Position numbers and translations under genes: made by a program. From Archaeoglobales archaeon (GTDB lineage: Archaea > Halobacteriota > Archaeoglobi > Archaeoglobales > Archaeoglobaceae), in assembly GCA_030055595.1 (NCBI GenBank), contig JASFYH010000010.1, forward strand, positions 1 to 60,866: a DNA stretch of 60,866 nucleotides, written 5' to 3'. Of this stretch, positions 8,726 to 36,958 are shown one piece after another; the first letter of the stretch is position 1; the number at the start of each line of letters is the position of its first letter. The notes below the pieces were generated by a model. The model saw only the letters and a list, made by a program, of their open reading frames with translations. It was not told where the DNA came from and did no database searches.

Positions 8726-9172
8726 GTGCTAGAACTTCTTGCCTCAACGAGACTTCAAATTCTCATGAAATTGAGGGAAAGACCCTATACAATCTCTGAG
8801 CTTTCAAAAGCCCTCGGATTCTCAAAAACCACTGCAAGTTATCACTTAGAGAAGCTCGAAACTAACGGGCTTGTGGAAAGAATCGAAAGAGGAAAATGGG
8901 TCTATTACAAGCTAACAGATCGTGGATTGAAGAACATGCGGGTCAAACTAACCGCCTCGATTGGATTCCTGATAACTTCTATAGCTTCAACGGTCTTAAT
9001 TATAGCCAAATCCATTCAGAAATTCCAAGTTACTCCTACCGCCCCCCAAATTGCGAAAGAGATTAGACCAACAGCGATTCCGGCTCCCGCTGACTATGAT
9101 CTCCTTCAAATAATACCACTGTTGATCTTAGCCCTTATATCTTTCCTTCTATTTCTCCTTTTCAGAAGGTAA
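8726..9172 (+). CDS. Membrane-anchored winged-helix (ArsR/MarR-like) regulator
   Basis: 148 residues. Residues 1-70 form a winged helix-turn-helix (T-I-S-E-L-S-K-A-L-G-F-S-K-T-T-A followed by a wing with W-V-Y-Y-K-L-T). Residues about 76-93 and 127-146 are hydrophobic membrane segments separated by a Pro-rich stretch, and the protein ends in F-R-R. This layout suggests a DNA-binding domain tethered to the membrane that could sense an envelope signal. Target genes are unknown. The GTG start is about 25 nt after a TATA-like element, so it is probably leaderless. The 3' end overlaps the convergent transporter gene by 11 bp. Confidence 0.8.
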   Translation: MLELLASTRLQILMKLRERPYTISELSKALGFSKTTASYHLEKLETNGLVERIERGKWVYYKLTDRGLKNMRVKLTASIGFLITSIASTVLIIAKSIQKFQVTPTAPQIAKEIRPTAIPAPADYDLLQIIPLLILALISFLLFLLFRR

Positions 9173-10346
9173 TAAAAAGCCATGCAATTGCAACCGCATA
9201 GATCGTTCCGATCACATCCGCGATCGTAGTAATTAACGGGATTCCACCATTGTCGGGATCGATCTTCACCATGTGCAAGAGAACCGCTATCCAAAAAGAT
9301 AGCAGAAGTAGTAGGAAGACTACAATGATAAAGCTAAAGAAGAAGATCGCAAAAAGGACCGCGTTTACGTATACAAAGCCAAAGTAAAGATATGCAAGAA
9401 CTAATGGAACAATAGAAATAAAGGGAAAAACGAGAGGAGTGGTCAGAAGAATATACTTGATGTCTTTTATCGCCTTTTTTAGATCGAAACCCTCAATTTC
9501 ACCAAGATGCAGTTTTGTCGAAGTTCTTGCGACTACAATAGATCCATAATTTCCAAACTGATCTATGATCGAGGGATAAGCAAAACCTACGAAAAAGGAC
9601 AAATATACAATTTCAGAGAACTCTTCGAGCAAGTTTCCTGTGATGCTCTGAATTAAAGCAAGAGAACACACAATTGCCAAGGACTCCTTGTAGATGCTCC
9701 AATTTCTTTTTTCTCTAACAGAAAAAATGACCGAGATTACAAGGACAAAAAACATTAATAAAGCTAAGATCCAGCTAACTTGGACCTCAAATAACACTAT
9801 AAGGAAAATGATCGAAGGGATCGTTATCAGATCCGCAATGGAAGTTATAAGAGGTCCAGAAATGCTATCGGGATCTATTGACTTCCTAAATGCAACTATA
9901 ACAACCGCAGTTGTGCATGCTGATAAAACAACCGCAGAGATCACGCTGGAGCTAACCGCAATTTGGGTTGCGGTCAAGATCGAAGAAACGTCAGGATACT
10001 TTGCGAGTGCAATTAGAAGCAGAATTAAAACTGGCATAGTTGCAAGCCATACAGAAAAGAATGAGTTTGTGATTACATATCGATCTCTAAAATCAGCTTC
10101 AGAAGAGCCAAGGTAGAACGCAGTCGAGAGCCTCGACGCCATTGCGCCAAAAACATTTCCCCTAAGCCCCATCAAACCGGGAAGAACTATTAAAAGATAA
10201 GGATAATTTTCAACAAATTTACTAAAATGCGCCCCAAGAAAGAAACCGGCAAAAACGTCAAAGATTAAACAGAGATAAAGAACGGGGACGATTAACCTTA
10301 AAGCCATTCTGAAGCTCAGTTCCCTCTCTGGAATTACCAACGGCAA
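9162..10346 (-). CDS. MgtE/SLC41-like divalent cation transporter (duplicated integral domain)
   Basis: 394 residues, about ten membrane segments in two homologous halves. Each half carries the MgtE-type signature: P-G-L-M-G-L-R-G-N-V-F-G-A-M-A-S-R in the first and Y-P-S-I-I-D-Q-F-G-N-Y-G-S-I-V-V-A-R-T-S-T in the second, with D-P-D-S/D-N-G-G elements after each. It lacks the cytosolic N and CBS domains of bacterial MgtE and so resembles eukaryotic SLC41 and archaeal full-length duplicates. Transport of Mg or a related cation is inferred. The TTG start at 10346 is supported by GGGGAT five bases upstream. Confidence 0.8.
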   Translation of the reverse strand: MPLVIPERELSFRMALRLIVPVLYLCLIFDVFAGFFLGAHFSKFVENYPYLLIVLPGLMGLRGNVFGAMASRLSTAFYLGSSEADFRDRYVITNSFFSVWLATMPVLILLLIALAKYPDVSSILTATQIAVSSSVISAVVLSACTTAVVIVAFRKSIDPDSISGPLITSIADLITIPSIIFLIVLFEVQVSWILALLMFFVLVISVIFSVREKRNWSIYKESLAIVCSLALIQSITGNLLEEFSEIVYLSFFVGFAYPSIIDQFGNYGSIVVARTSTKLHLGEIEGFDLKKAIKDIKYILLTTPLVFPFISIVPLVLAYLYFGFVYVNAVLFAIFFFSFIIVVFLLLLLSFWIAVLLHMVKIDPDNGGIPLITTIADVIGTIYAVAIAWLFITF

Positions 10347-23283: not shown

Positions 23284-24309
23284 TCAAGAGTTTTCAATTA
23301 GCTTTTTAAACAACTCCTTTCTGCCCTCAACTTTCTCAAAAACCTCTTCATAGCCACCGCTTGCCATTATAGAGACCAAAGGATCCCCTTTGCTGTAGGA
23401 GCCCATGGGGATGTCTGAAAAGAATGGGTTGCCACAAAGGTCTTTTTTGATCTTCAGCTCCCGATCTGCAAAATAAATTGCCCGAATTGCAAATCGCTTG
23501 GGCTTTAATCTTTCAATTTTTCTGCCCTCAAAAGCCTTTACGTGTAAAGAGAACAGATTGACATCTAAACTCCATTCAACACTGTCCAATGAGCCCTGAA
23601 ACCTCGGATTGAGCTCCAGAACGTATGGCTTGTCCGCAAGAATAAAATCGATGCCGATTGAGCCTCTCAGCTCAAAAAGCTCCGCTGTCTCTATGGCTAC
23701 CTTTTCAAGCATTTTTCTCTGCTCCTCTCGCACATTCAAAGGGGTTAGATTTCCGCTATACCTGAAACCTTCCGCATTCATCTCTTTCCAACCAGAAAAG
23801 ACATAGTTACAAGCTAAAGGAACGATTTCACGTGAAGCAAGCAAAGAAACACTGCAAGGAATTCCTTCAATGAATTCCTGCAAAATGTAGCCTTCTTCGC
23901 TTTTTTCTGCAAATTTTATCCCCTCTCCACCACCACCAAACCTTGGCTTTGCAATTGTTCTGCCCTCAGGCTTTTTCAAAACCTTTGGATGCGGAATTCC
24001 CGCTTTTTCGAGAGTTCTATAGAATTCAAGTTTGTCAACAATTCCCTTAACTTTTTTCGGCTCATTGCAGAGCAATTCCGCTTTTATTTCGAAACTTTCG
24101 AAGTTTGAACAGAGCACCACCTTGGCATTCTTTTCCTGAGCAATTGCTTCAGCCTCTTTAACCTTGTCAATTGGATATACTTCTTTGCAATAGAGATAAA
24201 GGTCCAGATCCGGATACTTCGTTATCGCATAGACCTCATAACCCGCTCTTCTTGCGGAGCTTGCGACATTTCTAACGTTAGTCCCAATCAGAAGCACTTT
24301 TTCAGGCAT
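23284..24309 (-). CDS. ATP-grasp carboligase (COG2232-like)
   Basis: 341 residues. An N-terminal pre-ATP-grasp fold (L-L-I-G-T-N-V-R-N-V-A) is followed by the ATP-grasp core: K-P-R-F-G-G-G-G-E-G for the phosphate loop and L-E-L-N-P-R-F-Q-G-S for metal-binding residues. Such enzymes join a carboxylate to an amine or thiol through an acyl phosphate; substrate not evident. It overlaps cofE by 22 bp, so a role connected to F420 or another cofactor is possible. Confidence 0.78.
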   Translation of the reverse strand: MPEKVLLIGTNVRNVASSARRAGYEVYAITKYPDLDLYLYCKEVYPIDKVKEAEAIAQEKNAKVVLCSNFESFEIKAELLCNEPKKVKGIVDKLEFYRTLEKAGIPHPKVLKKPEGRTIAKPRFGGGGEGIKFAEKSEEGYILQEFIEGIPCSVSLLASREIVPLACNYVFSGWKEMNAEGFRYSGNLTPLNVREEQRKMLEKVAIETAELFELRGSIGIDFILADKPYVLELNPRFQGSLDSVEWSLDVNLFSLHVKAFEGRKIERLKPKRFAIRAIYFADRELKIKKDLCGNPFFSDIPMGSYSKGDPLVSIMASGGYEEVFEKVEGRKELFKKLIENS

Positions 24310-25067
24310 CTTCTTATTACGTCTTCTTCTTCACTTCTATAAATGTCTCTCACTTTCCCATTGCCCAAGACTTTTAAACCCCTGACAAGCACAGCGGGAG
24401 TTGCATCGTTTGCTTCGCCCATCAGCAGATTTGCAAAACCCGCAATCTCGTCCGCTATGCATTCCACCGTTACTTCAAGAACGTTTCCGTAGAGGTCGCT
24501 GATTCCGCGCCAGTCCCTCATTGCCCAAAGTCCAGAGATGCCAACTGCAACTCCAACCACGCCTTTTCTGAAGCATCTTCCGTTTGTGTCAGTAATTATA
24601 ATCCCGACTTTTTTGCCAGTAAGCTCCTCAATTCTTTTTCTGAGCCTTTCAGCACTCTGATCTGGATCCACGAGGGGCAGAATTATGCTTCCTTTTTCAA
24701 TGTTCGAAGCGTCGATACCAGCGTTTACACAAATATTTCCATATTTTGCCTTTACAAGCAAAAATGGACCTTTTATAAGAATCTCCTCGCTTTCCTCGAT
24801 GACCGCCTGAACGAATTCTGGAGGTTTTCCGACCTTAGCACTTAATTCAAAAGCTAAAGGACTTGGCTTGTAATCGCTAAGCTTTCTAACTCTTCCTTCC
24901 GCCTTTGCAACAATTGTGGAGCACATTACAATTATGTCCCCTTCCTCAAGCGTGGCTCTTTCGACAATTAGCTTGGCTATGTCATCCCCTTTTTTTATTA
25001 TTGGTAATCCTTTTATTGGAATGAATTCAACCTTTTCTCGACAGATAGCCGAAGATGATGCTCGCAA
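24288..25067 (-). CDS. cofE: Coenzyme F420-0:L-glutamate ligase
   Basis: GTP-dependent ligase that adds the gamma-glutamyl tail to F420-0. The body matches CofE throughout (C-V-N-A-G-I-D-A-S-N, I-I-T-D-T-N-G-R-C-F-R, L-L-M-G-E-A-N-D and the C-terminal Y-R-S-E-E-E-D-V-I-R-R-C-L). The start is unclear: homology begins at V-E-F-I-P-I-K-G with no ATG, GTG or TTG just before it. I used the nearest in-frame candidate, TTG at 25067, adding about 12 residues; an ATG at 25142 is further inside alaS. Either choice overlaps the 3' end of alaS. Confidence 0.9.
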   Translation of the reverse strand: MRASSSAICREKVEFIPIKGLPIIKKGDDIAKLIVERATLEEGDIIVMCSTIVAKAEGRVRKLSDYKPSPLAFELSAKVGKPPEFVQAVIEESEEILIKGPFLLVKAKYGNICVNAGIDASNIEKGSIILPLVDPDQSAERLRKRIEELTGKKVGIIITDTNGRCFRKGVVGVAVGISGLWAMRDWRGISDLYGNVLEVTVECIADEIAGFANLLMGEANDATPAVLVRGLKVLGNGKVRDIYRSEEEDVIRRCLKKCF

Positions 25068-27720
25068 GCTCGTCTCTGCTGAGCAATTTCTCAACTGCTC
25101 CCTGAGCGAGCTCTTTTCTTCCCCCACCACTTCCCTTTGCATGTCTCCCTACCTCCCTTATAATTTCCCTTGCGTCATAATTACCAGAGGCGAAGGCTAC
25201 AACAAACGCCTTTCCTTCGCCAAGAGACATAAGACATCCAACCACGCCTTTACGAGCTAAATAATCGCCAAGCTTAAGCAGTTCAGCCATATCTCCCGTG
25301 ACGATTTCAGCGACAACCTTCAGACCGTTAAATTCCTCTGCATTTTTCAGCAAATTCTCTCCGATTGCCTCTGCAATTCTTTCCTTTAGCCTCTCTATCT
25401 CTTTCTTTTGTTCTTTCCACTCCTCAAAGAATCTCTCAACAGTTTTTGGAAGCATCTGTGGTTCAACTCGCAATATTCTGCTTGAATCTCTAAGCAGAGA
25501 CTCCATTTTTGCAATTGCTTCAATTGCTGATTCTGCAACCGCAAATTCAAACCTGATAACACCGTCCTGAATTGAATCAACGCTTAGAATTTTGATTACT
25601 CCAATCTCTCCCGTGCTACTGCAATGCGTCCCTCCGCAAGCCTGAACGTCGTCTCCAACCATTACAATTCTAATCTCCTTTCCTGGTGGAACTCCGCCTT
25701 GGTAGAGCCTGAAGCCGAATTTCTTCTCCGCTTCGATTCTGTCCATCCAGAACCACTTTATCTCCTTATTCGCAAAGACTTCCTTATTTGCAAGTCTCTC
25801 GATTTCTCTGACCTCTTCTTCGCCAATCTTTTTATAATGGCTAACGTCAAGCCTCGCCTTTTCAAATTCCTTTTTAGCTCCAGCTTGCCATATGTGCTTT
25901 CCATAGAGTTTTTGCAGTGTGTAAAGAAGCACGTGCGTTGCGGAGTGATGTCTCATGTGCCTAATTCTTCTTTCTGAATCGATAATACCTTTAATCTCAC
26001 CGCTGATAGCTATGGGCTTTTCGAGTTTGTGCAAGACTACGCCATCGACTTCAGTAACATAAACTACCCTTAATTTCTCACCATTCCAAACTATGTAACC
26101 CGCATCGCTGTCCTGTCCTCCGCTCTCTGGATAGAATGCGGTTCTGTCAAGAATCAGGAACCCATTTTCGTAGCCAATCGCTTTAGCATTGAACTCAAAG
26201 AGCTTTGGATTGTCATAGTAAAGCTTCTCAGTTTTTGGATAACTTCTTGAAAGCTTTATCTCCTCTTTTTCTTCTTTTACAGCTTTAGAATGCCTCTTAG
26301 CAAGCTCAGAGTAAAAGTCTGCGGGCAAGTCAACTTTCAATCCCTTATCTTCTGCGATCTTGAGCACAAGCTCCGCAGGAATGCCATGTGAGTCGTAGAA
26401 TTCAATCAGGTCTTCTTTTCCTATGCTCTTCTTTTTCTCAACTGTTCTCTCTACAAGCTTTAACCCCTTAGAAATCGTTGCCGTGTATCTCTCCTTTTCG
26501 AGCTTCAGAACTTCTTCAATTGTCTCCAAAGGAACCTCAAACTTGAATTTAAGCGTTTTGTTGTGCAGATCGACAAGATCGTAAAGATCGAGGCTAACTT
26601 GTAGCTCGTCTGCAAGTCTAAGGCTTCTTCTAATCATCAGCCTTGCAAGATAGCCCGCTCCCGCATTGGAAGGCACTAAGCCATCGCCAAGCATGAAAAG
26701 AAGGCATCTTGTATGATCCGCCAAAGCATAAATCTTCGATATTGGCTCCGTTAGGCTTTTTGCTTCTTCAACGCTCATATCGAACTTTTTAGAGAGCTCT
26801 GAAAGTATTTTATCCCTTGAATAGCCCATTCCCGCAAGTCTTGAGGTTTCAGCAACTATTGCCCTCGTGTCTTTGCCTTTAAGATCCCTAAGACCACTTG
26901 AATCAAAGATCTTGTCAAGAACTTTGCCAAAAATTGCATCGTAAACCGTCGGAGAGCCCTTGCTCATCCATACAAATCTCTCAAGCCCGTAGCCCGTGTC
27001 GACGATGTAGTTGTCCATTCTGCGATATCTCTCCCCCTTGATCTCAATGTCCCCATTTTCGTCAGCCTTTAAATTCATGAAGACGAGCGTTGCAAGTTCA
27101 AGTCCGCTGATGATTGCTTCCAAACAGGGTCCAGCGTTTCCTCCACCCGCCCATGGTTCCTCTTTGTAAACTATGTTCTCTTTTTTAATTCCGAGCTTTT
27201 CAAGGAGCTCCGTGCAGTAAGCAACGGTTTCGTTTTTCCAGTAGATCTCCTTGCCCGGAAAGTTGAACGCATGGTGTGCCATCATTTCAAAAAGCGTCAA
27301 GTGTCTTCCAGTTCTACCAACGCTGTCCAAATCGTCAAGCCTTATGCACGGCTGAGAAATTGTGAGTGGATTAGCTGGAGGCGGAGCAATTCCTGCGGTG
27401 ACGAATGGCTGAAAGTCCGCTATGCTTGCAATTGTTAAGTAAATATCATCTCTCCATCTCGCAACCACCGGATACCTCTCAATCCTCGCATGTCCTCGCT
27501 CTTCAAAGAATTTGAGGTAGAATTCCCGCATTTCATCGAGCTCAAAGCTTCTCTTAAAAGGAGAATTGCCTATAAAGGTATAACCACCGCAAGGTGGGTC
27601 TCCGCAGATCTCACGCTCGTCCGCAGTCCAGAAGAACTTGCCACACTTGACGCATTTCTTCCTGACAAAGCCATTCTCCTTCAGAAACGTGATGTCAAGG
27701 TATTCCTTTTCGAGAGTCAT
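25027..27720 (-). CDS. alaS: Alanyl-tRNA synthetase
   Basis: 897-residue archaeal AlaS. Order of domains: N-terminal zinc element (C-V-K-C near 20), class II catalytic core (F-E-E-R-G-H, R-L-D-D-L-D-S-V-G-R-T-G-R-H), editing domain with H-H-S-A-T-H around residue 600 and C-G-G-T-H about 100 residues later, and the C-Ala region ending G-S-G-G-G-R-K-E-L-A-Q-G. ATG at 27720 is about 25 nt after a TATATATC-type element (near 27745), so probably leaderless. cofE overlaps its 3' end. Confidence 0.97.
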   Translation of the reverse strand: MTLEKEYLDITFLKENGFVRKKCVKCGKFFWTADEREICGDPPCGGYTFIGNSPFKRSFELDEMREFYLKFFEERGHARIERYPVVARWRDDIYLTIASIADFQPFVTAGIAPPPANPLTISQPCIRLDDLDSVGRTGRHLTLFEMMAHHAFNFPGKEIYWKNETVAYCTELLEKLGIKKENIVYKEEPWAGGGNAGPCLEAIISGLELATLVFMNLKADENGDIEIKGERYRRMDNYIVDTGYGLERFVWMSKGSPTVYDAIFGKVLDKIFDSSGLRDLKGKDTRAIVAETSRLAGMGYSRDKILSELSKKFDMSVEEAKSLTEPISKIYALADHTRCLLFMLGDGLVPSNAGAGYLARLMIRRSLRLADELQVSLDLYDLVDLHNKTLKFKFEVPLETIEEVLKLEKERYTATISKGLKLVERTVEKKKSIGKEDLIEFYDSHGIPAELVLKIAEDKGLKVDLPADFYSELAKRHSKAVKEEKEEIKLSRSYPKTEKLYYDNPKLFEFNAKAIGYENGFLILDRTAFYPESGGQDSDAGYIVWNGEKLRVVYVTEVDGVVLHKLEKPIAISGEIKGIIDSERRIRHMRHHSATHVLLYTLQKLYGKHIWQAGAKKEFEKARLDVSHYKKIGEEEVREIERLANKEVFANKEIKWFWMDRIEAEKKFGFRLYQGGVPPGKEIRIVMVGDDVQACGGTHCSSTGEIGVIKILSVDSIQDGVIRFEFAVAESAIEAIAKMESLLRDSSRILRVEPQMLPKTVERFFEEWKEQKKEIERLKERIAEAIGENLLKNAEEFNGLKVVAEIVTGDMAELLKLGDYLARKGVVGCLMSLGEGKAFVVAFASGNYDAREIIREVGRHAKGSGGGRKELAQGAVEKLLSRDELASIIFGYLSRKG

Positions 27721-27809: not shown

Positions 27810-28898
27810 ATGGACGCCTCTCTCAGAATCGCAAGGGTGAAAGGAATTGAAATTATGATCCACTGGAGTCTTTTCATAATTCTATTCATACTTTCAAGCT
27901 ATTTCTACGTCTCAAGTGAGCCATTTGGCTTTGCAAATCTTAAAGAACCTGAAAGAATTGCTTTTTCAATCTTGGCTTCGATCTTTGTATTCATTGCGGT
28001 GCTTTTGCATGAGCTTGCCCACTCACTTGTAGCAATGAAGTTCGGCGTTAAGGTGAAGGGAATAATGCTCTTCATCTTCGGCGGAGTCGCAATGATGGAA
28101 AAAATCCCAAAGAATCCAAAAGAAGAGCTTGCCATAGCGTTAGCTGGGCCTTTAGCGAGTTTAACGATTGCCATTCTGAGCTTTATTATAGCTCTAAACA
28201 CAGCGGGCGGAATTTCTATGTTTTTCCTGATCAGCGCCTATTTCAACTCAATACTTACGATCTTCAACCTTATTCCCGCTTTTCCAATGGATGGCGGAAG
28301 AGTTTTGCGTAGCCTCATAGCAAGGAGGACAAGCTATAGCAAGGCAACAAAGACCGCTGCGGGAATTGGTAAAGCGATAGCGATTGCCATGGGAATAATC
28401 GGATTTTTTGGTGTGAATATCTGGCTCATGCTCATCGCCCTCTTTATATACCTCGGAGCGAGTGAGGAAGAGAAGATCGTGACCGCTGAGGATCTGTTTT
28501 CGAGGTTTTCAATAGGAGACATAATGACAAAAGAAGTGATCTCAGTCTCTCCAGAGACAAAAGTTGGGGAGGTGATCGATCTAATGTTCAGACACAAACA
28601 TCTTGGCTACCCGGTTGTTAAAGTTAAAGATCGTGAACTTGTGGGAATAGTGACCTTAAAGGACATTATGAATGTAGATCCGAATGCAAAAGTGGAAGAA
28701 GTTATGAGCAGAGAGGTTCTGACTATTTCGCCCAAAGATCGGGCTTTTGAGGCTTTCAAAATCATGAGCGAGAAAGGAATAGGTAGAATACCAGTTGTTG
28801 AGGACGGAAAGCTTGTTGGGATCGTTTCGAGGAGCGATCTAATGAAGATCAAAGAACTGCTTGAATTTCTGGAGGTGTTGGAGTGGAAAAGAAGCTGA
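27810..28898 (+). CDS. Site-2 protease (M50) with two CBS domains
   Basis: 362-residue intramembrane zinc metalloprotease. The zinc site is H67-E-L-A-H71 and the third ligand lies in N-L-I-P-A-F-P-M-D161-G-G, both inside membrane helices. Residues about 228-280 and 290-350 are CBS domains, which usually bind adenine nucleotides and may gate activity by energy state. Members cleave membrane-bound regulators. It overlaps the TraB gene by 16 bp. ATG at 27810 lies about 25 nt after AGCTTAAAGA. Confidence 0.9.
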   Translation: MDASLRIARVKGIEIMIHWSLFIILFILSSYFYVSSEPFGFANLKEPERIAFSILASIFVFIAVLLHELAHSLVAMKFGVKVKGIMLFIFGGVAMMEKIPKNPKEELAIALAGPLASLTIAILSFIIALNTAGGISMFFLISAYFNSILTIFNLIPAFPMDGGRVLRSLIARRTSYSKATKTAAGIGKAIAIAMGIIGFFGVNIWLMLIALFIYLGASEEEKIVTAEDLFSRFSIGDIMTKEVISVSPETKVGEVIDLMFRHKHLGYPVVKVKDRELVGIVTLKDIMNVDPNAKVEEVMSREVLTISPKDRAFEAFKIMSEKGIGRIPVVEDGKLVGIVSRSDLMKIKELLEFLEVLEWKRS

Positions 28899-30034
28899 TC
28901 ATTGTTGGCACCGCTCATGTTTTGCAGAAGAGCGTTGAAGAAGTAAAGGCGGTCATAGAGAACGAAAAGCCCAACGCAGTGGCTGTGGAACTTTGTCCAG
29001 CAAGATATAAGGCTCTGATTGGAGAAAGAGAAGAAGTAAAGGTATCAGAGATACTTAAGAGGGGTGATTTCTTCTTAATATTGCTACAGCTAATTCTCGG
29101 CTATTTCCAGAGAAAAATGGGAGAAGAGTTGAAGACAAAGCCCGGAGAAGAGATGCTTACAGCAATAAATAAGGCAAAGGAGATCAATGCGGATCTTCTG
29201 CTTATAGATCGGGATATTACGATTACCTTTAAGCGTCTCTGGGGACAGATGAGCTTCTTTGAAAAACTAAAGTTTCTTTATTACACGTTTAGAGGTTCTT
29301 TTGGCAAAGATATAGAAGTTGAGGAAATGCTCAGGGAGGACATAATAGATCTTCTCGTTAGGGAATTCAGAAAGATCTCGCCAAAGGCTGCAAAGGTTTT
29401 GATCGACGAAAGAGACGAGTTCATGGCTTATAATTTGCTTAGGGCAATGGAGAGATACAACAAAGTTGTTGCGGTAGTGGGAGCGGGGCACAAGAAGGGG
29501 ATCGTTGAGGCGATGCAAAGAGGTGTGCAGAATCCCGAGAAACTGCTTGAGATAAAGCAAAGCAATAAGCTCAAGTGGATCGGAGTCGCATTCGTTGGCA
29601 TAATACTCACATTTTTCGCTCTGACTGCGATTTTTGCATTCGAGTTGTTATACAAGGTCTTTATCTATTGGTTCCTGATCAATGGAATTCTTGCAAGCCT
29701 TGGAGCACTTATTGCAAGAGGACATCCGTTGTCTGTGCTGTCAGCATTTTTATGTGCATGGCTCACGTCTTTAAACCCGTTTTTAGCAGCTGGATGGATC
29801 TCTGGAGCGGTTGAAGCTTGGATCAGAAAGCCAACAATGAAGGATGTAGAAGATGTTTTCAAGACAGATAGCTTGAGAGAAATGCTCAACAACAAATTCT
29901 TCAGAGTGATCCTTGTCGCAGCGTTAACGAATCTCGGTAGCATGATCGGCACGATCTATGGGGGTTATTACATTCTGACAAACTTTGGTGTAGACGTTGC
30001 AAAAGTGATCTCCGAAAACCTGCGATTTTTATGA
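28883..30034 (+). CDS. TraB/PrgY family membrane protein
   Basis: 383 residues. The N-terminal TraB domain begins I-I-V-G-T-A-H-V and contains V-A-V-E-L-C-P-A-R-Y and V-V-A-V-V-G-A-G-H-K-K-G-I, the conserved GxxH and ExxR elements of the Tiki/TraB/EreA superfamily, some members of which are metalloproteases. The C-terminal 150 residues carry about four membrane helices. In enterococci, PrgY limits peptide pheromone; the archaeal role is unknown. GTG at 28883 has GGAGGTG upstream. Confidence 0.86.
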   Translation: MEKKLIIVGTAHVLQKSVEEVKAVIENEKPNAVAVELCPARYKALIGEREEVKVSEILKRGDFFLILLQLILGYFQRKMGEELKTKPGEEMLTAINKAKEINADLLLIDRDITITFKRLWGQMSFFEKLKFLYYTFRGSFGKDIEVEEMLREDIIDLLVREFRKISPKAAKVLIDERDEFMAYNLLRAMERYNKVVAVVGAGHKKGIVEAMQRGVQNPEKLLEIKQSNKLKWIGVAFVGIILTFFALTAIFAFELLYKVFIYWFLINGILASLGALIARGHPLSVLSAFLCAWLTSLNPFLAAGWISGAVEAWIRKPTMKDVEDVFKTDSLREMLNNKFFRVILVAALTNLGSMIGTIYGGYYILTNFGVDVAKVISENLRFL

Positions 30035-30522
30035 TCCAGCTTCAGCCCCTCGGAGAATTGGATCAGGAACTTATAGAGTGGCTGGCGGGAGTATTAAAAA
30101 GGGTATTCAACACTGAGGTCTCGATTCTTCCCAGCATTCCGATGCCTTCGAATTGCTACAGCAAGCGGGGACAATACAACTCAACATGCATTCTTGCCAC
30201 GCTGAAAGCTTCGAGGATCACGCTTGCCATAACGTCAGAGGATCTATATGCAAGAGCTCTGAACTTTGTCTTCGGCGAAGCTGAAGTGGGGGGCAAAAAG
30301 GCTATTGTTTCTTACTACAGGCTAAAATTTGGTGTTAACAGGGAAGAGCTCAAGATTAGGCTTCTAAAAGAAGCAGTGCATGAATTAGGGCATGTTTTTG
30401 GTTTGGAGCATTGCAGAACTGTAGGCTGTGTTATGAACTTCTCGAACAACGTTCTGGAAGTCGATAAAAAGACTTCGAATTTTTGCAAGGATTGCATTTC
30501 AAAATTAAAAAATAAAATTTAA
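30031..30522 (+). CDS. amzA: Archaemetzincin zinc peptidase
   Basis: 163-residue peptidase M54. The catalytic motif H117-E-L-G-H121-x5-H127 is followed by the family's four-Cys zinc site starting C128-R-T-V-G-C133-V-M, with C-K-D-C near the C-terminus. Archaemetzincins are metzincins with a second structural zinc; physiological substrates are poorly known. The ATG overlaps the TraB stop by 4 bp, completing a three-gene unit, and the 3' end overlaps the convergent gene by 4 bp. Confidence 0.93.
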   Translation: MIQLQPLGELDQELIEWLAGVLKRVFNTEVSILPSIPMPSNCYSKRGQYNSTCILATLKASRITLAITSEDLYARALNFVFGEAEVGGKKAIVSYYRLKFGVNREELKIRLLKEAVHELGHVFGLEHCRTVGCVMNFSNNVLEVDKKTSNFCKDCISKLKNKI

Positions 30523-33092
30523 TTCTTCCTCCTAATCAGATAAGCCACCGCTAAAAGCCCTGCGATTGCAAAGAGAGCTTCAAAACCCGGAATGAATCCC
30601 GGAGCGGGTGTTGTTGTGGGTGGTGGAGTTGTAACGACTGTTGTTGGTGGTGGAGTTGCCACTGGTGTTGTCGGCTTTGGAGTTTCCAAAGGCTTTAGCT
30701 GTGCGACGAAGTAGCTAAAGCTTGTAGTTTCAGCCTCGTAGTAGTTGTATTTTCCATCACTGCCAACGAACTTCGTAGGCAATTCGATCCATTCCTTGCC
30801 GTTCCACTTCAGCAGAATTACTGCGACAGCGTTTGGATCGAAGCCCTTGGCTTTTATGTCTTCTATTGGGATTCCAAATTTGATCTTTCCTTTAATGCTT
30901 GCTTCTTTGCTCAAAGTTGGTTCTATGCTCAGTATTAGCACTACTAAGTCTCCCTTCGGCTCTGGAATTCCAGGTGGCAGTTCTTTAAGCTTTTCAATCC
31001 TGAAGCGGATGTTGTTGTCCTCTGAGCTCAGTATCAAGAGTGCAACAACATTTGTCTCCCAGAAGGCACTCTGCGGTAGATCTATTGTGCTCTCTTCATT
31101 TGCTTTTACTGTAATATAAGCGGTTATGTAGACTGGCACTCCCGGCATTGCTCCCCCACCGCCACCTCCCCCGCCGAGTATTGGGCGTGGTGGTGTGGAG
31201 ACAATTACTGTCACACTCGCTGTGTTGTTAGCCTCAGAAGCCGGGTAGCCATAGAGCTCAACAACAGAGCCAAGAGGCAGAAGTGTTGCCAAAGCTGGGA
31301 CAAGCAAACCATCCAAAGTAACGTTGAGCCTTTCCGTTCCAGCAGTTGTTGGGATCCAAGTGAAGTTGAACGTAGTGTTTGAATTAGCTGGAAGCGTCAT
31401 TACTTTGTAGCCAAGCGTTGCGGTTGCATTAGATAGGATCACGAAGAAGGGATCTGGAGTTGCGTTGCTACCAACGTTGCTAACCTTCACGGTTATATTG
31501 TATGCATTGCCAACGATTGCACTGCTTGGAGCACTTAAAATTTCGACTTGCAAGTCTCTTAAACCGAGATCTCTCTTGTCTACGCAATTTCCGCTGAGCA
31601 CGGAATTGATCCACTGGACAAGCGTGTAGCCGTCGATGTGCAGATTGTAGAATCGATCTCCTGCGGGATAATTGTAGCCACCAGCGAAAGCGGTGTGATA
31701 TGTTGAAAGTGGCAAGTAAGAGCAGAATCTCGTGCTGAAGTTAGCCTTTATGCTAGCAATCGCATTCAACAGCCTTGTCTGGAAATCGGTGAAGCTGTAG
31801 CCCTGGAAGTATGGACCGATTACAAAGTCCCACTGATCCTCAAAGAGAGCGTATATGCAGTTTCCACAGCCACCCGCAGAGCCATTTAATGCCCAGTTGA
31901 GGAACCTGATCGTGTCGGTGTCTGCAAAGTATGGCAGTGATTGCGGTGGATAACTCTGCATTGAACCCCAACGCTCCGCAGTCGCCGTTGGTGGTAAAGC
32001 GCTTGTGACATTCGGCGCTGTTCCTGGGCCAGCATCGTTTATTGCAATGATTCCCTTACCAAATATTTCCGAAGCTCTGTAGAAGTGCAGAATTGTGCCA
32101 AAGCCTCCCGCGGAAGTGCCAGTAACTACGATTTGATCAAAGTTCCCGCTTGCATTGATCCAGCGCATTGCTACGATTGCGTTAACATAGCCAATGTGGT
32201 AAATTGTTTTGTTCTGCAGTGGATTGCTTGTGTTGTAGTATTTCACAACCCTGTTGCCCATGTGAATGTCCCCAGTGCTATAAGGCACAAAGACCATCGT
32301 CCAGTTGCGGAACGGATTCAACGGGCTCTTGACATCGAAGATCCCTTTAACATAAGTGCTTTTCAGCGGTCTTGTTCCCGTATCGAATTCTGGTTCAAGA
32401 GTTGTAACTGTGCTTGCTGGTCCACCACAACTTGCATAGCTTGAACATGCTCCACCGCCTTCAAGGTAGATCAGAACCTTGTTCTCGCTACCTTTTCTAA
32501 CCATTATGAAAGTGTTGTTCCCAACACCATTCTTGCAGTCCGCAGGCAGATCAACCTTTGTCCAGTTTATTCCATCGCTTGGATCATCTACGGGCAGAGA
32601 AGCAAAGCTTGTCATTCCCGCAATGCTGATTGTAAATGGATTTCTCCAAGTTGAGTTTATGACCTCGTAGTCAAGAATGGTGATCGTTACTTTTTCAGGC
32701 AAAACTGTAACTGGAGCGCCATTCACCGCGGAGCTGACTGGAGTGACATTTGTAGTAGTAGCAACTCCTGTAGCCTTGAAGCCAAGCGTAGCTACTTTTG
32801 TCTTCCCGGAAATGCTCCCACCCGCTCCAATGAATGCAACGTAATTTGCACCAGTCTTGAACTGCTCCTCTCCAAACACTCCATACCTCACCCTGTCGAT
32901 CAAACTAAGTTTTGTTGGCTCGTAAGTCAGGTTTAATAGCACGGAACCAATATTGGTGCCATTAACATAGACGTCAACCTGCACAACATCTCCCTTTGGC
33001 ATTGCGGTTTTATTAGCCTCGAGTGTGATCTCAGCTGCTGAGACTACTGCAATGCTCAGAATTAAGAGGGTAAAAATTTTAAGAGCTTTCAT
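30519..33092 (-). CDS. Secreted cohesin + pectinacetylesterase-like + PGF-CTERM surface protein
   Basis: 857 residues. Signal peptide about 1-20; cohesin domain 21-140 (A-N-K-T-A-M-P-K-G-D-V-V-Q-V-D, with the L-x-Y/D-P-x-x-L element); pectinacetylesterase/notum-like hydrolase 165-500 with L-E-G-G-G-A-C and G-T-S-A-G (Ser327), candidate acid Asp353 and His466; CARDB-like domain 510-630; poly-Gly linker 640-648; PGF-pre-PGF domain 652-800; Pro/Thr linker; PGF-CTERM anchor 832-857. The C-terminal signal predicts archaeosortase processing and attachment to a lipid at the cell surface. It lies 10 bp after the tri-hydrolase gene with GAGGTGG before the ATG. Substrate unknown; an acyl ester is likely. 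Confidence 0.82.
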   Translation of the reverse strand: MKALKIFTLLILSIAVVSAAEITLEANKTAMPKGDVVQVDVYVNGTNIGSVLLNLTYEPTKLSLIDRVRYGVFGEEQFKTGANYVAFIGAGGSISGKTKVATLGFKATGVATTTNVTPVSSAVNGAPVTVLPEKVTITILDYEVINSTWRNPFTISIAGMTSFASLPVDDPSDGINWTKVDLPADCKNGVGNNTFIMVRKGSENKVLIYLEGGGACSSYASCGGPASTVTTLEPEFDTGTRPLKSTYVKGIFDVKSPLNPFRNWTMVFVPYSTGDIHMGNRVVKYYNTSNPLQNKTIYHIGYVNAIVAMRWINASGNFDQIVVTGTSAGGFGTILHFYRASEIFGKGIIAINDAGPGTAPNVTSALPPTATAERWGSMQSYPPQSLPYFADTDTIRFLNWALNGSAGGCGNCIYALFEDQWDFVIGPYFQGYSFTDFQTRLLNAIASIKANFSTRFCSYLPLSTYHTAFAGGYNYPAGDRFYNLHIDGYTLVQWINSVLSGNCVDKRDLGLRDLQVEILSAPSSAIVGNAYNITVKVSNVGSNATPDPFFVILSNATATLGYKVMTLPANSNTTFNFTWIPTTAGTERLNVTLDGLLVPALATLLPLGSVVELYGYPASEANNTASVTVIVSTPPRPILGGGGGGGGAMPGVPVYITAYITVKANEESTIDLPQSAFWETNVVALLILSSEDNNIRFRIEKLKELPPGIPEPKGDLVVLILSIEPTLSKEASIKGKIKFGIPIEDIKAKGFDPNAVAVILLKWNGKEWIELPTKFVGSDGKYNYYEAETTSFSYFVAQLKPLETPKPTTPVATPPPTTVVTTPPPTTTPAPGFIPGFEALFAIAGLLAVAYLIRRKN

Positions 33093-33102
33093 TTAAACCA
33101 CC

Positions 33103-36100
33103 TCAGCTACCGATCCATTTTACCATAACCTTCGTCATGTTGGCCATGCTCAGGCTTCCTCCATCGTAAGCGTTTAGAGCTTGAATTAGCTCACTGTCGC
33201 TTATTTTCTTATCTCCGTTGCTGTCATAATTTCTCCAGACATCCCAGCTTCCGTTTTCAATTCCGAGCATCCAGTTAAGCAGTGGCTCATTTACGTCTTT
33301 TCTTATGAATGGTCCGTTGTAAACATCGAGATGCCCATAGCCCTGCAATAGAACGCAAGTGAAGTCATCGCTTCCGGTCGGGTTTACGCATGGTCCTCCG
33401 AAGCCCGGAACAAGTAGTCCGAGATTGTAGCCCCACTGGCTTACAAATGAGATCACAGGCACAGTAATCTCGCTGTAATGATCGTCGAAGTCAAATGGCA
33501 AATACGGGCAATTCTGCCAGTCCGCATACGCTGATCTGTCTAAATTGAGCCTGTTAGACCAGAATGGGTCAAACGCCGCCATGACTGCGAAGTATACGTG
33601 CGGGATCAATATCGCCCATGGATAGCTGAATGGATTTGCTGCTCCTGGGAAAACATACCACGTGGAAAGCCCAGAAAGCAGTGTTATGTTCTTTATCGGC
33701 GAAGGATTAACTATGGCGTCAACCCATATGTGCCAGTTGTTCGGTCCACCATTTGAAGGCACTTGGTAAGGAATCGCTCCCGCTTTCATTGCAGTGAGAT
33801 TTGCAGTCAGATTGTAGCTGTTCGTTCTTGTTCCAACCCTCGACATGCCGTCGAGCAGGATTAGACCCTTCAGATCTTCCTGGAATAGAGTTGCGTAGTT
33901 CTGTGCTGCGATTCCACCAAAGCTCTCTCCAGCGAGGTAGATCTTTTCTTTGCCCGAAATTTGCTTTATCTTCTCAACCGCAGTCTTAATGTCCCAGATC
34001 CAGTTCACCCAGCCCCACTCAAACATGAAAGAGAAGTCTGTCGTGTCATTTGGCACGAAGTGTGTTCTGTAGTCAATTGTGTAAACATCAAAGCCACGAT
34101 TAGCAAGGAATGGCACAAGAGCGTATTCTTCGTTTACATCGATCCAGCCATTGTCGTTCCATGAGAGATTGGCAAGCTGTTCTCCGCTCGACCATGTTCC
34201 TGGCAGTATTAGGATCACTGGTTTATCGCCTACAATGCTTTCGTTCACGACTCTCTCAATTGCGATCTTGTCGTAGCTTCCATACGGCGGTCGATCAACA
34301 GTCCAGACGTATCTCTTAAGCTCAGTCCCTCTTACAGTTTTCTCCACCGGACCAATCCAGTTCTCTTCTACAATGTCTTTGCCACTGCCAGCGAGCAAAG
34401 CATTGACCCACTGGTAGAAGTAGTAACCGCTTATATTCAAATTGTAGAATCTGTCATCCTCATAGCACTGCGGGAAGCCATAACAGCTTGGAAGGACCAT
34501 GTGCATCAAATCGAGCACGAAGAACCTAAAGAACTTGTCCTTGTGTGCCATTTTTATTTCATTGCTCAGACTCACCAGCTGTGCTCTGAAGTCTGTAGGA
34601 TCTGCTCTAAGCGTTCCAATTACGAAGTCATATTGATCCTCGTAGAGCCCGTAAATACAGCCTTCACACCTTGGCAACGAATAGTCGAGGAAGTGCAGTA
34701 AGTCCTTGTCGTTGAAGTAGCTGATCGAGTCTGCGGGGAAGTTCTGCAAGGAACCCCATCTTGCGGTTGTTACCGCCCAGTTGAATGGATTTGTTTCACT
34801 TACTCTTATTCCCGGTCCAGCGTCGTTTATGACTGTAATTGGCTTCTTGAAGATCTCATAGGCTTTGTAGTGGTGCAGAATTGAACCAAAACCTCCAGCA
34901 GAAGAGCCGGCGAGAACAACTCTGTCAAAGGTTGTCTGGTTGATCCAGCGCATTGCTACGATTGCATTAACATAGCCAACATGGTAGATCGTTTTGTTCT
35001 CAGTAGGATTGCTTGGATTTGTTATGTTGTAGTATTTAACGACTCTGTTGCCATGATGGAAGTCTCCAGTTGAGAATGGGACGAAAACCACAGTCCAATC
35101 GCGGAATGGGTTCAATGGGTTGCTGAAGTTGAATATGCCCATAGTATAGGCTGCAACAAGCTCTGTGAAGTTCAGATCGAGCTTAACCACAGTGCCACCT
35201 TCGAGCAAGGGTCTGCAAGTCAAGAAATCAACACAGGCTCCACCACCTTCAAGGTAGAAGAGGAGTTTGCTTGCATTCGCACCACTGCCCTTCTTGACCA
35301 TTATGAAACTCTGGTTTCCGTTTCCAGTCTTGCAAGGCTCCGGCAAGTCGACTTTGATCCAACCACTTCCGCTTAGATCTTCGAATTTCGGCATTGAGCT
35401 TATATTGACTGCAAACGGATCCGCATAGTATGGCACAAGGATCTCAGCATCCACTGCGGGAATTCCGTAGGGCGACAAAAGCGGGAATGTCTGCACGTAG
35501 TCGTTAAACTGCAAAATTACGCGGTGCTCAGAGGACTTCCAGTTAGGAACCTTCAGCGTTTGCACTCCTCCGCCACGGGCAAATATTGTAACGTTTATGC
35601 TCTGATCCGGAGCACCAGCGGGAATGTAGTAATCAATTCCAGTCTGGAAGGCTTGGGCATGATAGGTGGCGTTCGGAGGATACAGAACGCTCTGCTGGTC
35701 AGAATTGTTGTCGAAGATCCATATTCCTGTTGGGCCGTTCAATGACTTGTTTACATTGCAAATTCTTGGATCGCAGACTGAGACACCGTTGATCTTCAGA
35801 TCATCAGCAGTGTTAACGTAAAGCGTATCAACTTCAGTTAAGATCTCCTTGTATCTCATTATGAGCAAATTGGTGTGCTGGTCACTTCTGCTTGCATACT
35901 CCGCAATACCGCCAGGCGGTGAAACAAGGAAGCGGATCCATTGGTCGCTCCTCAGGAATGGTTCTCTGTAGAAGTGCATCGTGAGGTTGTTAGCCCTTAC
36001 GAATTCGAACTCATATCTAACTCCCGGCTTTGCGTTAAAAGGTCCCCAAGTGCCGTCGGTGATCGTGTAAGTTGCAACAGGCGTGTTGCTAAGTCTGAAG

Positions 36101-36804
36101 CCGTCCTCTCTTAGCTCGTATATGTTTAGAGTTCCAGTTTCAAGCCCGATGTTGGAGGGGAAGTAAACAAGTTTTCCCTTAAGCTCTATTTCTTTCTCAG
36201 GCAGTATGTATTTCGTGACTGGCTCCTTGCCAGTAATGAATTTGAACATCTCGACAAAGCTCTCTGCAGACGTCATGACTTCAACGTGTGTCTGATTTTG
36301 AATGTAAACGTTCGTAGCTCCTGTAACATTCGCTCCGGGCGGTCTTAAAGCGGTTGGTCTGCCAAAGATTGCGAGCGTAGTAACATTCGGAGCGGGAACA
36401 TTTGCGATGCCATCAACGAGTATGATCTTTGCAACCTTGTCTTCGTAATCTGAGTAGAATAGAGTGTAGTTGTAAACAACTCTCGTGCCCAGGGAATGAC
36501 CAATGAGCACGGGCTTACCGAGAGTTTCAGAGGTCGTATTTACTTTCTGAGAAAGCAAAGCAAGTGTTTGCGCCTGATAAGTTGGACTTACAGAATATGC
36601 GGAGCTGTCATATTCGAAAACCATTAAGCAGTCCGCTGGATAGCCATTGCTTGTGAAACGCATTGCTTGGCTTTCAAACTGCGCTCCTGAGCCAGCGCCA
36701 CCGTGGACGAAGATTACCGGTGGTGTTTTCTCTGAACATTGAGCTGAGACTACTTGAGCACTTACTAACACCAGTAATAGAAACCCTAACCACTTCGTTT
36801 TCAT
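33103..36804 (-). CDS. Secreted three-hydrolase protein with C-terminal dockerin-like EF hand
   Basis: 1233 residues. Signal peptide 1-22 (the ATG at 36804 has GGTGAG upstream; a 50-residue extension to 36954 is rejected). Module 1 (about 27-450) resembles the A. fulgidus lipase AFL: H-G-G-A-G 35-39, G102-H-S104-L-G, Asp131, His173, then a beta-barrel region. Module 2 (about 478-815) is pectinacetylesterase-like: L-E-G-G-G-A-C, G633-S-S635-A-G, Asp661, His768. Module 3 (861-1180) is another alpha/beta hydrolase: G959-E-S961-F-G, Asp985, His1158. Residues 1191-1230 contain a complete EF-hand loop (D1194 to E1205) followed by a helix, as in archaeal dockerin-like modules. First gene of the pair with the cohesin protein. 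Confidence 0.82.
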   Translation of the reverse strand: MKTKWLGFLLLVLVSAQVVSAQCSEKTPPVIFVHGGAGSGAQFESQAMRFTSNGYPADCLMVFEYDSSAYSVSPTYQAQTLALLSQKVNTTSETLGKPVLIGHSLGTRVVYNYTLFYSDYEDKVAKIILVDGIANVPAPNVTTLAIFGRPTALRPPGANVTGATNVYIQNQTHVEVMTSAESFVEMFKFITGKEPVTKYILPEKEIELKGKLVYFPSNIGLETGTLNIYELREDGFRLSNTPVATYTITDGTWGPFNAKPGVRYEFEFVRANNLTMHFYREPFLRSDQWIRFLVSPPGGIAEYASRSDQHTNLLIMRYKEILTEVDTLYVNTADDLKINGVSVCDPRICNVNKSLNGPTGIWIFDNNSDQQSVLYPPNATYHAQAFQTGIDYYIPAGAPDQSINVTIFARGGGVQTLKVPNWKSSEHRVILQFNDYVQTFPLLSPYGIPAVDAEILVPYYADPFAVNISSMPKFEDLSGSGWIKVDLPEPCKTGNGNQSFIMVKKGSGANASKLLFYLEGGGACVDFLTCRPLLEGGTVVKLDLNFTELVAAYTMGIFNFSNPLNPFRDWTVVFVPFSTGDFHHGNRVVKYYNITNPSNPTENKTIYHVGYVNAIVAMRWINQTTFDRVVLAGSSAGGFGSILHHYKAYEIFKKPITVINDAGPGIRVSETNPFNWAVTTARWGSLQNFPADSISYFNDKDLLHFLDYSLPRCEGCIYGLYEDQYDFVIGTLRADPTDFRAQLVSLSNEIKMAHKDKFFRFFVLDLMHMVLPSCYGFPQCYEDDRFYNLNISGYYFYQWVNALLAGSGKDIVEENWIGPVEKTVRGTELKRYVWTVDRPPYGSYDKIAIERVVNESIVGDKPVILILPGTWSSGEQLANLSWNDNGWIDVNEEYALVPFLANRGFDVYTIDYRTHFVPNDTTDFSFMFEWGWVNWIWDIKTAVEKIKQISGKEKIYLAGESFGGIAAQNYATLFQEDLKGLILLDGMSRVGTRTNSYNLTANLTAMKAGAIPYQVPSNGGPNNWHIWVDAIVNPSPIKNITLLSGLSTWYVFPGAANPFSYPWAILIPHVYFAVMAAFDPFWSNRLNLDRSAYADWQNCPYLPFDFDDHYSEITVPVISFVSQWGYNLGLLVPGFGGPCVNPTGSDDFTCVLLQGYGHLDVYNGPFIRKDVNEPLLNWMLGIENGSWDVWRNYDSNGDKKISDSELIQALNAYDGGSLSMANMTKVMVKWIGS

Positions 36805-36820
36805 ACTCTCACCAATTTTC

Positions 36821-36846
36821 AATTTCGAAATTTCCGATCGTCGATC
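36821..36846. promoter_or_regulatory. Two adjacent palindromes at the esterase operon promoter
   Basis: AATTTCGAAATT (36821-36832) is a perfect 12-bp palindrome and GATCG-T-CGATC (36836-36846) is a perfect 5-bp inverted repeat with a single central base. On the minus strand they lie just downstream of a TATA-like TTTAAAAG (about 36848-36858) and cover the predicted start near 36828. Together they look like an operator. Confidence 0.45.
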
Positions 36847-36958
36847 ACTTTTAAAGTATTTAAGATTTTTCATGTTAAATAACAAAATAATTTTTAGATC
36901 TGAAAAATCAGTTTTGATATAAAAATTTCGCGTAATCCGAAAAGTGCATTGCAAATTT

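Follow-up and report, generated by a model that had tools for sequence, protein, structure and literature searches.

Site-2 proteases (S2Ps) are regulators of signalling in every domain of life. In the DNA analysed here, a stretch of 60,866 nucleotides from an Archaeoglobales archaeon (assembly GCA_030055595.1, contig JASFYH010000010.1; hereafter the window), the gene for an S2P with two CBS domains is followed by overlapping genes for a TraB family protein and an archaemetzincin (AMZ). The SpoIVFA-SpoIVFB-BofA system of Bacillus, which reportedly has an operon organisation, resembles this locus in that a CBS-domain S2P works with other membrane proteins. It differs from it in containing no archaemetzincin and in the nature of the partner, since the TraB protein of the window carries a TraB/TIKI domain and is, to our knowledge, unrelated to SpoIVFA and BofA. 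SpoIVFB, which is inhibited by its membrane partners BofA and SpoIVFA (PubMed Central, PMC9042235), is among the closest solved relatives of the window S2P, and the archaeal S2P MJ0392 (mjS2P, 3b4r) belongs to the same M50 subfamily. The targets of archaeal S2Ps were termed unknown in a 2015 review (PMC4343526), and S2P roles in Haloferax were given as unknown in a review from 2022 (PMC9263693); the word TraB does not occur in these two reviews of archaeal membrane proteases.

The TIKI/TraB/PrgY superfamily, to which Tiki, TRABD and PrgY belong, shares with the window TraB the profiles TIGR00261 and PF01963, and the predicted fold of the latter matches Tetrahymena TraB and, more weakly, ChaN. 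What sets the window protein apart is a helical membrane domain without a clear solved match and its genetic tie to an S2P. TraB proteins reach human mitochondria, their enzymatic function being unsettled, and the protease function of TRABD "remains to be investigated" (PMC12329661). For the third protein, the closest solved relative is AfAmzA of Archaeoglobus fulgidus (3zvs, 4a3w, 4axq), which was crystallised, revealed occluded active sites and was inactive on a large variety of substrates in vitro (PMC3427221). The words "operon" and "neighbor" are not contained in the text of that paper. AMZ-tk of Thermococcus kodakarensis, likewise an M54 archaemetzincin, degrades casein with zinc; it differs in having been studied alone, and the word "operon" does not occur in the text of its paper (PMC4681839). 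Every component of the locus belongs to a known family, and an S2P with an operon partner is a known kind of arrangement. Descriptions of an S2P-TraB or TraB-archaemetzincin link, of a conserved pair or of a swapped third slot were not found among the openly licensed PMC papers listed; gene-neighbour databases may show them. The conserved gene pair offers S2P, TraB and AfAmzA each an obvious partner to examine, and its side-by-side conservation in many archaea suggests that S2P and TraB cooperate in a little-studied membrane proteolysis module.

Conservation of the S2P-TraB gene pair

To describe gene order, genomes, genera, families and loci are cited by our working labels (G, g, f and L, respectively). 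Among 55 genomes of the window's family, S2P was found in 49, TraB in 48 and AMZ in 37. S2P matches covering the CBS part alone were left out; they were the only S2P matches in G183 and G209. Of the 47 genomes carrying both genes, 37 had S2P immediately before traB, the pair being kept in every genome with both of the genera g1, g3, g4, g5, g7, g9, g10 and g85. In the phylum (196 genomes), the two genes were adjacent with S2P first in 79 of the 113 genomes with both among the matches listed, and the pair was present in 13 of 22 families; 83 genomes were left unjudged since one or both matches were not listed or not found. The 34 genomes with non-adjacent genes belong mainly to f6 (13) and f1 (8). 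A third sample consisted of the best 80 of 537 confirmed TraB loci from named organisms. Here, S2P was encoded upstream of TraB in at least 25 loci (a lower bound as some flanks were short; one of them is a partial match of 42 bits only), including Methanolobus, Methanococcoides, Methanothrix, Methanoperedens and Methanonatronarchaeales, and one Archaeoglobi genome (L112) contained the whole trio. The concern raised with the original prediction, that the neighbourhood might be confined to one genome, is thereby removed. As judged from gene order, the core is shown to be a two-gene unit of a CBS-domain S2P and TraB, retained across much of one archaeal phylum.

The specificity of this linkage was examined by comparing the flanks of the pair. 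For 12 loci of the window's family, a common gene among the three upstream of S2P was found in only two of 66 comparisons. Downstream of traB, 12 of the same comparisons had a common gene, which was AMZ itself in ten cases. When the 12 loci were set against 13 loci of other families (156 comparisons), eight shared an upstream gene, six times one encoding a PRC-barrel protein, and none a downstream gene. Among the 13 other-family loci (78 comparisons), 16 shared an upstream gene (15 PRC-barrel) and 18 a downstream gene (15 of them encoding a small M50 protease); L103, whose TraB position stems from the TraB search, was left out of these comparisons. Hence, in the window's family the genes around the pair turn over and the pair itself persists, and with an upstream flank common in two of 66 comparisons as opposed to a pair in 37 of 47 genomes, the adjacency is more than chance. 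In f3, f7, f13 and f17 the linkage may partly reflect general synteny and be less specific, because the conserved block in these families is longer than the module. Taken together, the order kept in the family and in the listed phylum genomes, combined with the turnover of the flanks, supports a joint function of S2P and TraB, and we regard a functional link between the two as highly probable.

The recurring upstream neighbour deserves attention of its own. A PRC-barrel gene is situated within approximately 210 bp of the S2P gene on the opposite strand in four of six g5 and in all three g7 genomes, and in the same way near traB in three of six g6 genomes, where S2P is encoded elsewhere. It also recurs next to the pair in loci of f2, f3, f7, f10, f13 and f17. 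Small PRC-barrel genes lying divergently beside S2P-TraB in several families are, for instance, L080:7242-7589, L092:7055-7309, L093:4285-4587, L097:6725-7015 and L222:4594-4986. Just past the PRC-barrel gene, a gene for Thg1 (tRNA-His guanylyltransferase) was seen in several families (L097:6999-7733, L093:3545-4288, L123:2809-3558).

The third position is more variable. The full trio, equivalent to a TraB-AMZ adjacency, was detected in 15 of the 55 family genomes (g1, 6/10; g9, 8/8; g10, 1/1); in G217 the contig ends within the AMZ gene, and G014, which belongs to the genus of the window, retains S2P-TraB and has its AMZ gene elsewhere. AMZ is not a required step, because all seven g4 genomes (G034, G043, G127, G154, G193, G207 and G208) keep S2P-TraB and AMZ was found in none of them. 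In the phylum, AMZ was detected at E < 1e-12 in 126 genomes among the matches listed, 91 of them with TraB also listed, and in ten of these 91 the two genes were adjacent, all ten belonging to the window's family. The AMZ link is thus real but lineage-limited, an add-on in three genera. Of the joint function that the original prediction had assumed for all three families, the S2P-TraB part is supported by gene order, whereas the AMZ link is confined to a few lineages.

In other families, the slot next to TraB is occupied differently. In a set of 20 loci, 14 of which contain S2P-TraB, a small M50 protease was encoded right after TraB in seven of the 14 (f3, f7, f11, f13, f17, f18 and f28). These proteins comprise approximately 205-220 residues (the L103 frame has 286, its start being uncertain) and lack CBS domains. 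PF02163 was found in all five of the seven that were scanned, and HExxH and DG motifs are present in all seven. That the third position harbours a metalloprotease in both patterns, M54 in g1, g9 and g10 or a small M50, is the strongest indication of a function for this position, although the sample is small. A tree of AMZ sequences (66 rows) placed every trio row within one group of 34 rows (97/97), which also holds 17 solo AMZ rows; two of the latter stem from other families (f20 and f4). The inner order of the tree is only partly resolved and the solo AMZ of G014 groups with a trio row (99/93), so that the tree is compatible with either gain or loss of the linkage. Fragments below 130 residues, the cut G217 copy, L001 (identical to the window) and second matches within a locus had been left out; G081 and G136 were entered twice.

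Properties of the three proteins

The original prediction of three genes overlapping by 16 and 4 bp proved exact in coordinates, strand and overlaps. All three genes lie on the plus strand in the order S2P, TraB, AMZ, with shared nucleotides at 28883-28898 and 30031-30034, and the assigned identities (CBS-bearing intramembrane zinc protease, TraB, zinc peptidase) were upheld by Pfam and NCBIfam profiles. An overlap of 16-25 bp between S2P and TraB recurred in all 15 trios; TraB and AMZ overlapped in 13, the other two showing distances of +2 and +49 bp (each frame being taken to begin at its first start codon). A Shine-Dalgarno-like sequence for TraB lies inside the end of the S2P gene, and AMZ starts within an ATGA overlap with TraB without a visible Shine-Dalgarno sequence. 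This layout suggests translational coupling. A scan for promoters and terminators of the operon, designed for bacteria, gave counts under the means of shuffled sequences (3 versus 4.2 and 1 versus 3.0).

In the window S2P, the HExxH and NxxPxxxxDG motifs of M50 proteases are both intact, as seen in an alignment of 23 proteins including the window protein, and PF00571 matches in two stretches, as expected for tandem CBS domains. The nearest solved sequence is MJ0392 (E 5.8e-41 over residues 2-226), followed by SpoIVFB. The window AMZ possesses the HExxHxxGxxHC, CxM and CxxC motifs of M54 peptidases and exceeds the NF033823 cut-off; H117, E118, H121, H127, C128, C133, M135, C152 and C155 are invariant in 14 of 14 aligned AMZs. 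The Met-to-Cys spacing is 16 in this protein and in AfAmzA, compared to 17 in the published consensus. Judging from these residues, the zinc sites of both S2P and AMZ are intact. AfAmzA itself is the third gene product of a trio, since its 160 residues are all identical to those of the AMZ of G112, which identifies this genome as A. fulgidus. It is a natural hypothesis that AfAmzA depends on something supplied by its own operon, either a partner or a special substrate.

TraB scored 463.8 bits against TIGR00261 (cut-off 178.35), and its AlphaFold model had a predicted local distance difference test (pLDDT) value of 81.9. In 24 of 24 aligned TraBs, T10, H12, E36, R41, E90, D109, R110, E176-R177-D178, G200, G202 and H203 are invariant, and G9 is present in at least 90%. 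These residues include two GxxH motifs, which we take to be the motif pair of the Tiki literature. The nearest solved sequences are two TraB proteins in Tetrahymena mitochondrial complexes, and a Foldseek search with the model returned only Tetrahymena proteins at E < 0.001. The model aligned over 192 residues with Tetrahymena TraB (Z 14.1). The value for ChaN (Z 8.7 over 146 residues) only just exceeds 8, the noise level of the tool, and that for EreC (Z 6.9) is on par with unrelated rows such as FtsY (7.1). By profile, invariant residues and the Tetrahymena match, the N-terminal domain is a member of the TraB/TIKI family, whose proteins are possible metalloproteases, and TraB can be regarded as a putative metallohydrolase whose activity is not readable from the fold. 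In view of this fold match and the invariant histidine motifs, all three proteins are actual or putative metallohydrolases. The original description of TraB as a membrane protein was correct as far as it went, a helical membrane domain being present, and incomplete in overlooking the N-terminal TraB/TIKI domain indicated by profile, invariant residues and fold match.

Conservation is similar in the membrane domain and in the soluble domain, with mean majority fractions of 0.62 and 0.64, respectively. Modelled alone, the membrane domain reached pLDDT 86.3 and showed short helices near H281 and N298-P299; a search against known folds gave no clear match among solved structures (Foldseek best E 2.0, VIA best Z 4.8). 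TraB has no hydrophobic N-terminal segment, and basic residues are confined to loops predicted inside with none in the others, which weakly suggests that the N-terminal domain faces the cytosol. TraBs of approximately 220-237 residues without a membrane domain, still adjoining S2P, are encoded in f2 and f11 (L092:5213-5875 and L099:5805-6518). Distant TraB relatives were also seen in two unannotated Enterococcus phage records (OR846634.1 and OR846621.1). A link between Lon and TraB was not found in the literature, and no Lon gene was recognised by eye beside one haloarchaeal TraB gene.

Proposed mechanism and alternative explanations

We favour an archaeal membrane metalloprotease module and consider the chances about even that the roles proposed here for S2P, TraB and AMZ are right. 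S2P and TraB would form a membrane complex in which S2P cuts membrane-embedded substrates close to the cytosolic face, its CBS pair possibly sensing the nucleotide or energy state. The membrane domain of TraB may contact S2P or its substrate, and the N-terminal domain, predicted to be cytosolic, could act as a second metal-dependent hydrolase or as a gatekeeper. In three genera, AMZ would be an optional cytosolic peptidase trimming fragments released into the cytosol, and its slot may be filled in other lineages by a second, small M50 protease. As in the original prediction, there may be a membrane-to-cytosol cascade, in which adenylates would gate S2P through the CBS domains and AMZ would act downstream. 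Should every catalytic part be oriented towards the cytosol, a role of TraB as a classical outside "site-1" cutter would be unlikely, which alters the cascade first imagined. As a possible substrate, the product of 8726-9172 had been proposed. It is an ArsR-type helix-turn-helix protein with C-terminal hydrophobic stretches, as expected for a membrane-bound regulator, but no link to the operon was found. The gene adjoins 9162-10346, which by eye resembles an MgtE-type transporter gene.

A bolder version of the module appears doubtful to us. It would make S2P-TraB and a third metalloprotease a widespread, hitherto undescribed archaeal multi-protease membrane machine, in which metallohydrolases of unrelated folds would process the same membrane substrates one after the other under energy gating by CBS domains, with M54 and small M50 proteases swapped in the third slot and, in some lineages, maybe a tie to cell division via PRC-barrel proteins.

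Several observations weigh against the membrane metalloprotease module. S2P and TraB are separate in g2, g6 and g8 (0/10 genomes with both), and the pair was adjacent in none of 13 f6 genomes, which are fragmented and have the matches on different contigs. Only the 25 named loci mentioned above, out of the best 80, had S2P upstream, and among the same 80 this held for none of 15 bacterial loci and for no Methanomicrobiales locus. The longer block common to f3, f7, f13 and f17 includes Thg1 and unrelated metabolic genes downstream. As to AMZ, its gene was found in no g4 genome, the tree shows no single origin of trio AMZs, and AfAmzA showed no activity in vitro towards many substrates (PMC3427221). 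Tetrahymena TraB belongs to structures of mitochondrial complex IV, and similar folds include non-proteases according to their entry titles, namely the heme-binding ChaN and the esterase EreC, the latter matching only at noise level. Furthermore, a traB deletion in Methanococcus maripaludis was reported to be viable with normal growth and transformation, and deleting the CBS-domain gene beside traB likewise left growth and transformation normal (PMC10133366).

It is conceivable, though rather unlikely in our opinion, that TraB is a non-proteolytic membrane partner which regulates S2P or presents substrate to it, comparable to SpoIVFA and BofA for SpoIVFB. The N-terminal domain would then bind a metal or small ligand and AMZ would be a bystander. 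The conservation of the membrane domain, needless for a mere anchor, is in line with this idea, as are the position of SpoIVFB as the next solved relative of S2P after MJ0392, its inhibition by membrane partners and the location of eukaryotic TraB proteins in complexes and contact sites (PMC12329661, PMC9513094). On the other hand, the invariant H12, H203, E36, E90, D109, R110 and E176-R177-D178 resemble an active site, and the f2 and f11 TraBs adjoin S2P despite having no membrane domain.

A linkage of housekeeping nature, by which low-level membrane quality-control genes are co-transcribed without a common substrate or complex, is improbable. Such a linkage would agree with the position of AMZ away from TraB in 22 of the 37 AMZ-bearing family genomes (two of the 22 being without any TraB match), with the separation of S2P and TraB in three family genera and with the metabolic genes that travel with the block in f3, f7, f13 and f17. 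However, the S2P-TraB order is kept in 13 families while other flanks are lost within the window's family and in comparison to other families, which is hard to explain without joint constraint.

Very improbable is a module that serves cell division or the envelope via the divergently encoded PRC-barrel protein: its recurrence beside the genes and the division function of the Haloferax PRC-barrel proteins CdpB1 and CdpB2 (PMC12186497) speak for it, but PRC-barrel matches occur in almost all genomes (53 of 55 in the family with 101 matches listed, 13 of 14 controls), none is encoded beside the trio in the window's genome, and the family proteins are at most candidate CdpB orthologues.

Feature coordinates and neighbouring genes

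Table 1. Features of the three genes in the window, and small M50 genes in loci of other families (label:positions)
Feature	Position	Strand	Evidence
Site-2 protease (M50) with two C-terminal CBS domains, 362 aa	27810..28898	+	Pfam PF02163 E 8.5e-24; PF00571 E 1.8e-33
S2P zinc motif HELAH (H67, E68, H71)	28008..28022	+	three residues invariant in 23/23 aligned S2Ps
S2P second motif NLIPAFPMDGG (N153-G163, D161)	28266..28298	+	N153, P156, D161, G162, G163 invariant in 23/23
CBS pair of S2P, approximate span	28503..28850	+	PF00571 in two stretches, best residues 295-347; start set by eye from the sequence
Shine-Dalgarno-like GGAGGTG	28871..28877	+	within 3' end of S2P gene, 5 nt ahead of TraB GTG; read by eye, putative function
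TraB family protein, 383 aa, GTG start; TraB/TIKI domain ~1-216, helical membrane domain ~229-368	28883..30034	+	TIGR00261, PF01963, AlphaFold model
TraB first GxxH motif, GTAH (H12)	28907..28918	+	H12 invariant in 24/24
TraB second GxxH motif, GAGH (H203)	29480..29491	+	G200, G202, H203 invariant in 24/24
TraB membrane domain, conserved polar H281, N298, E311, R315, N350	29567..29986	+	H281 in 21/22, N298 in 20/22, E311/R315/N350 in 22/22
Archaemetzincin (M54), 163 aa	30031..30522	+	NF033823 158.6 bits (cut-off 145); PF07998; 3zvs E 1.9e-45
AMZ zinc site and Cys4 motif (HELGHVFGLEHC to CKDC)	30379..30495	+	invariant residues in 14/14
Small M50 downstream of TraB	L097:3739-4359, L102:3462-4088, L107:4089-4751, L099:6530-7147		

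Beyond the three genes, two adjacent large genes with pectinacetylesterase-like domains are located on the minus strand at 30519-33092 and 33103-36954. The first encodes a protein with a PGF-CTERM sorting motif at its end and overlaps the archaemetzincin gene tail-to-tail by 4 bp. The second additionally encodes Lipase_C, AF_1763-like and alpha/beta hydrolase domains. On the other side of the trio, cofE-like and alaS frames on the minus strand (24288-25142 and 25027-27720) overlap by 116 bp. Since the CofE profile begins at residue 39, the true cofE start is probably further inside the frame 24288-25142.

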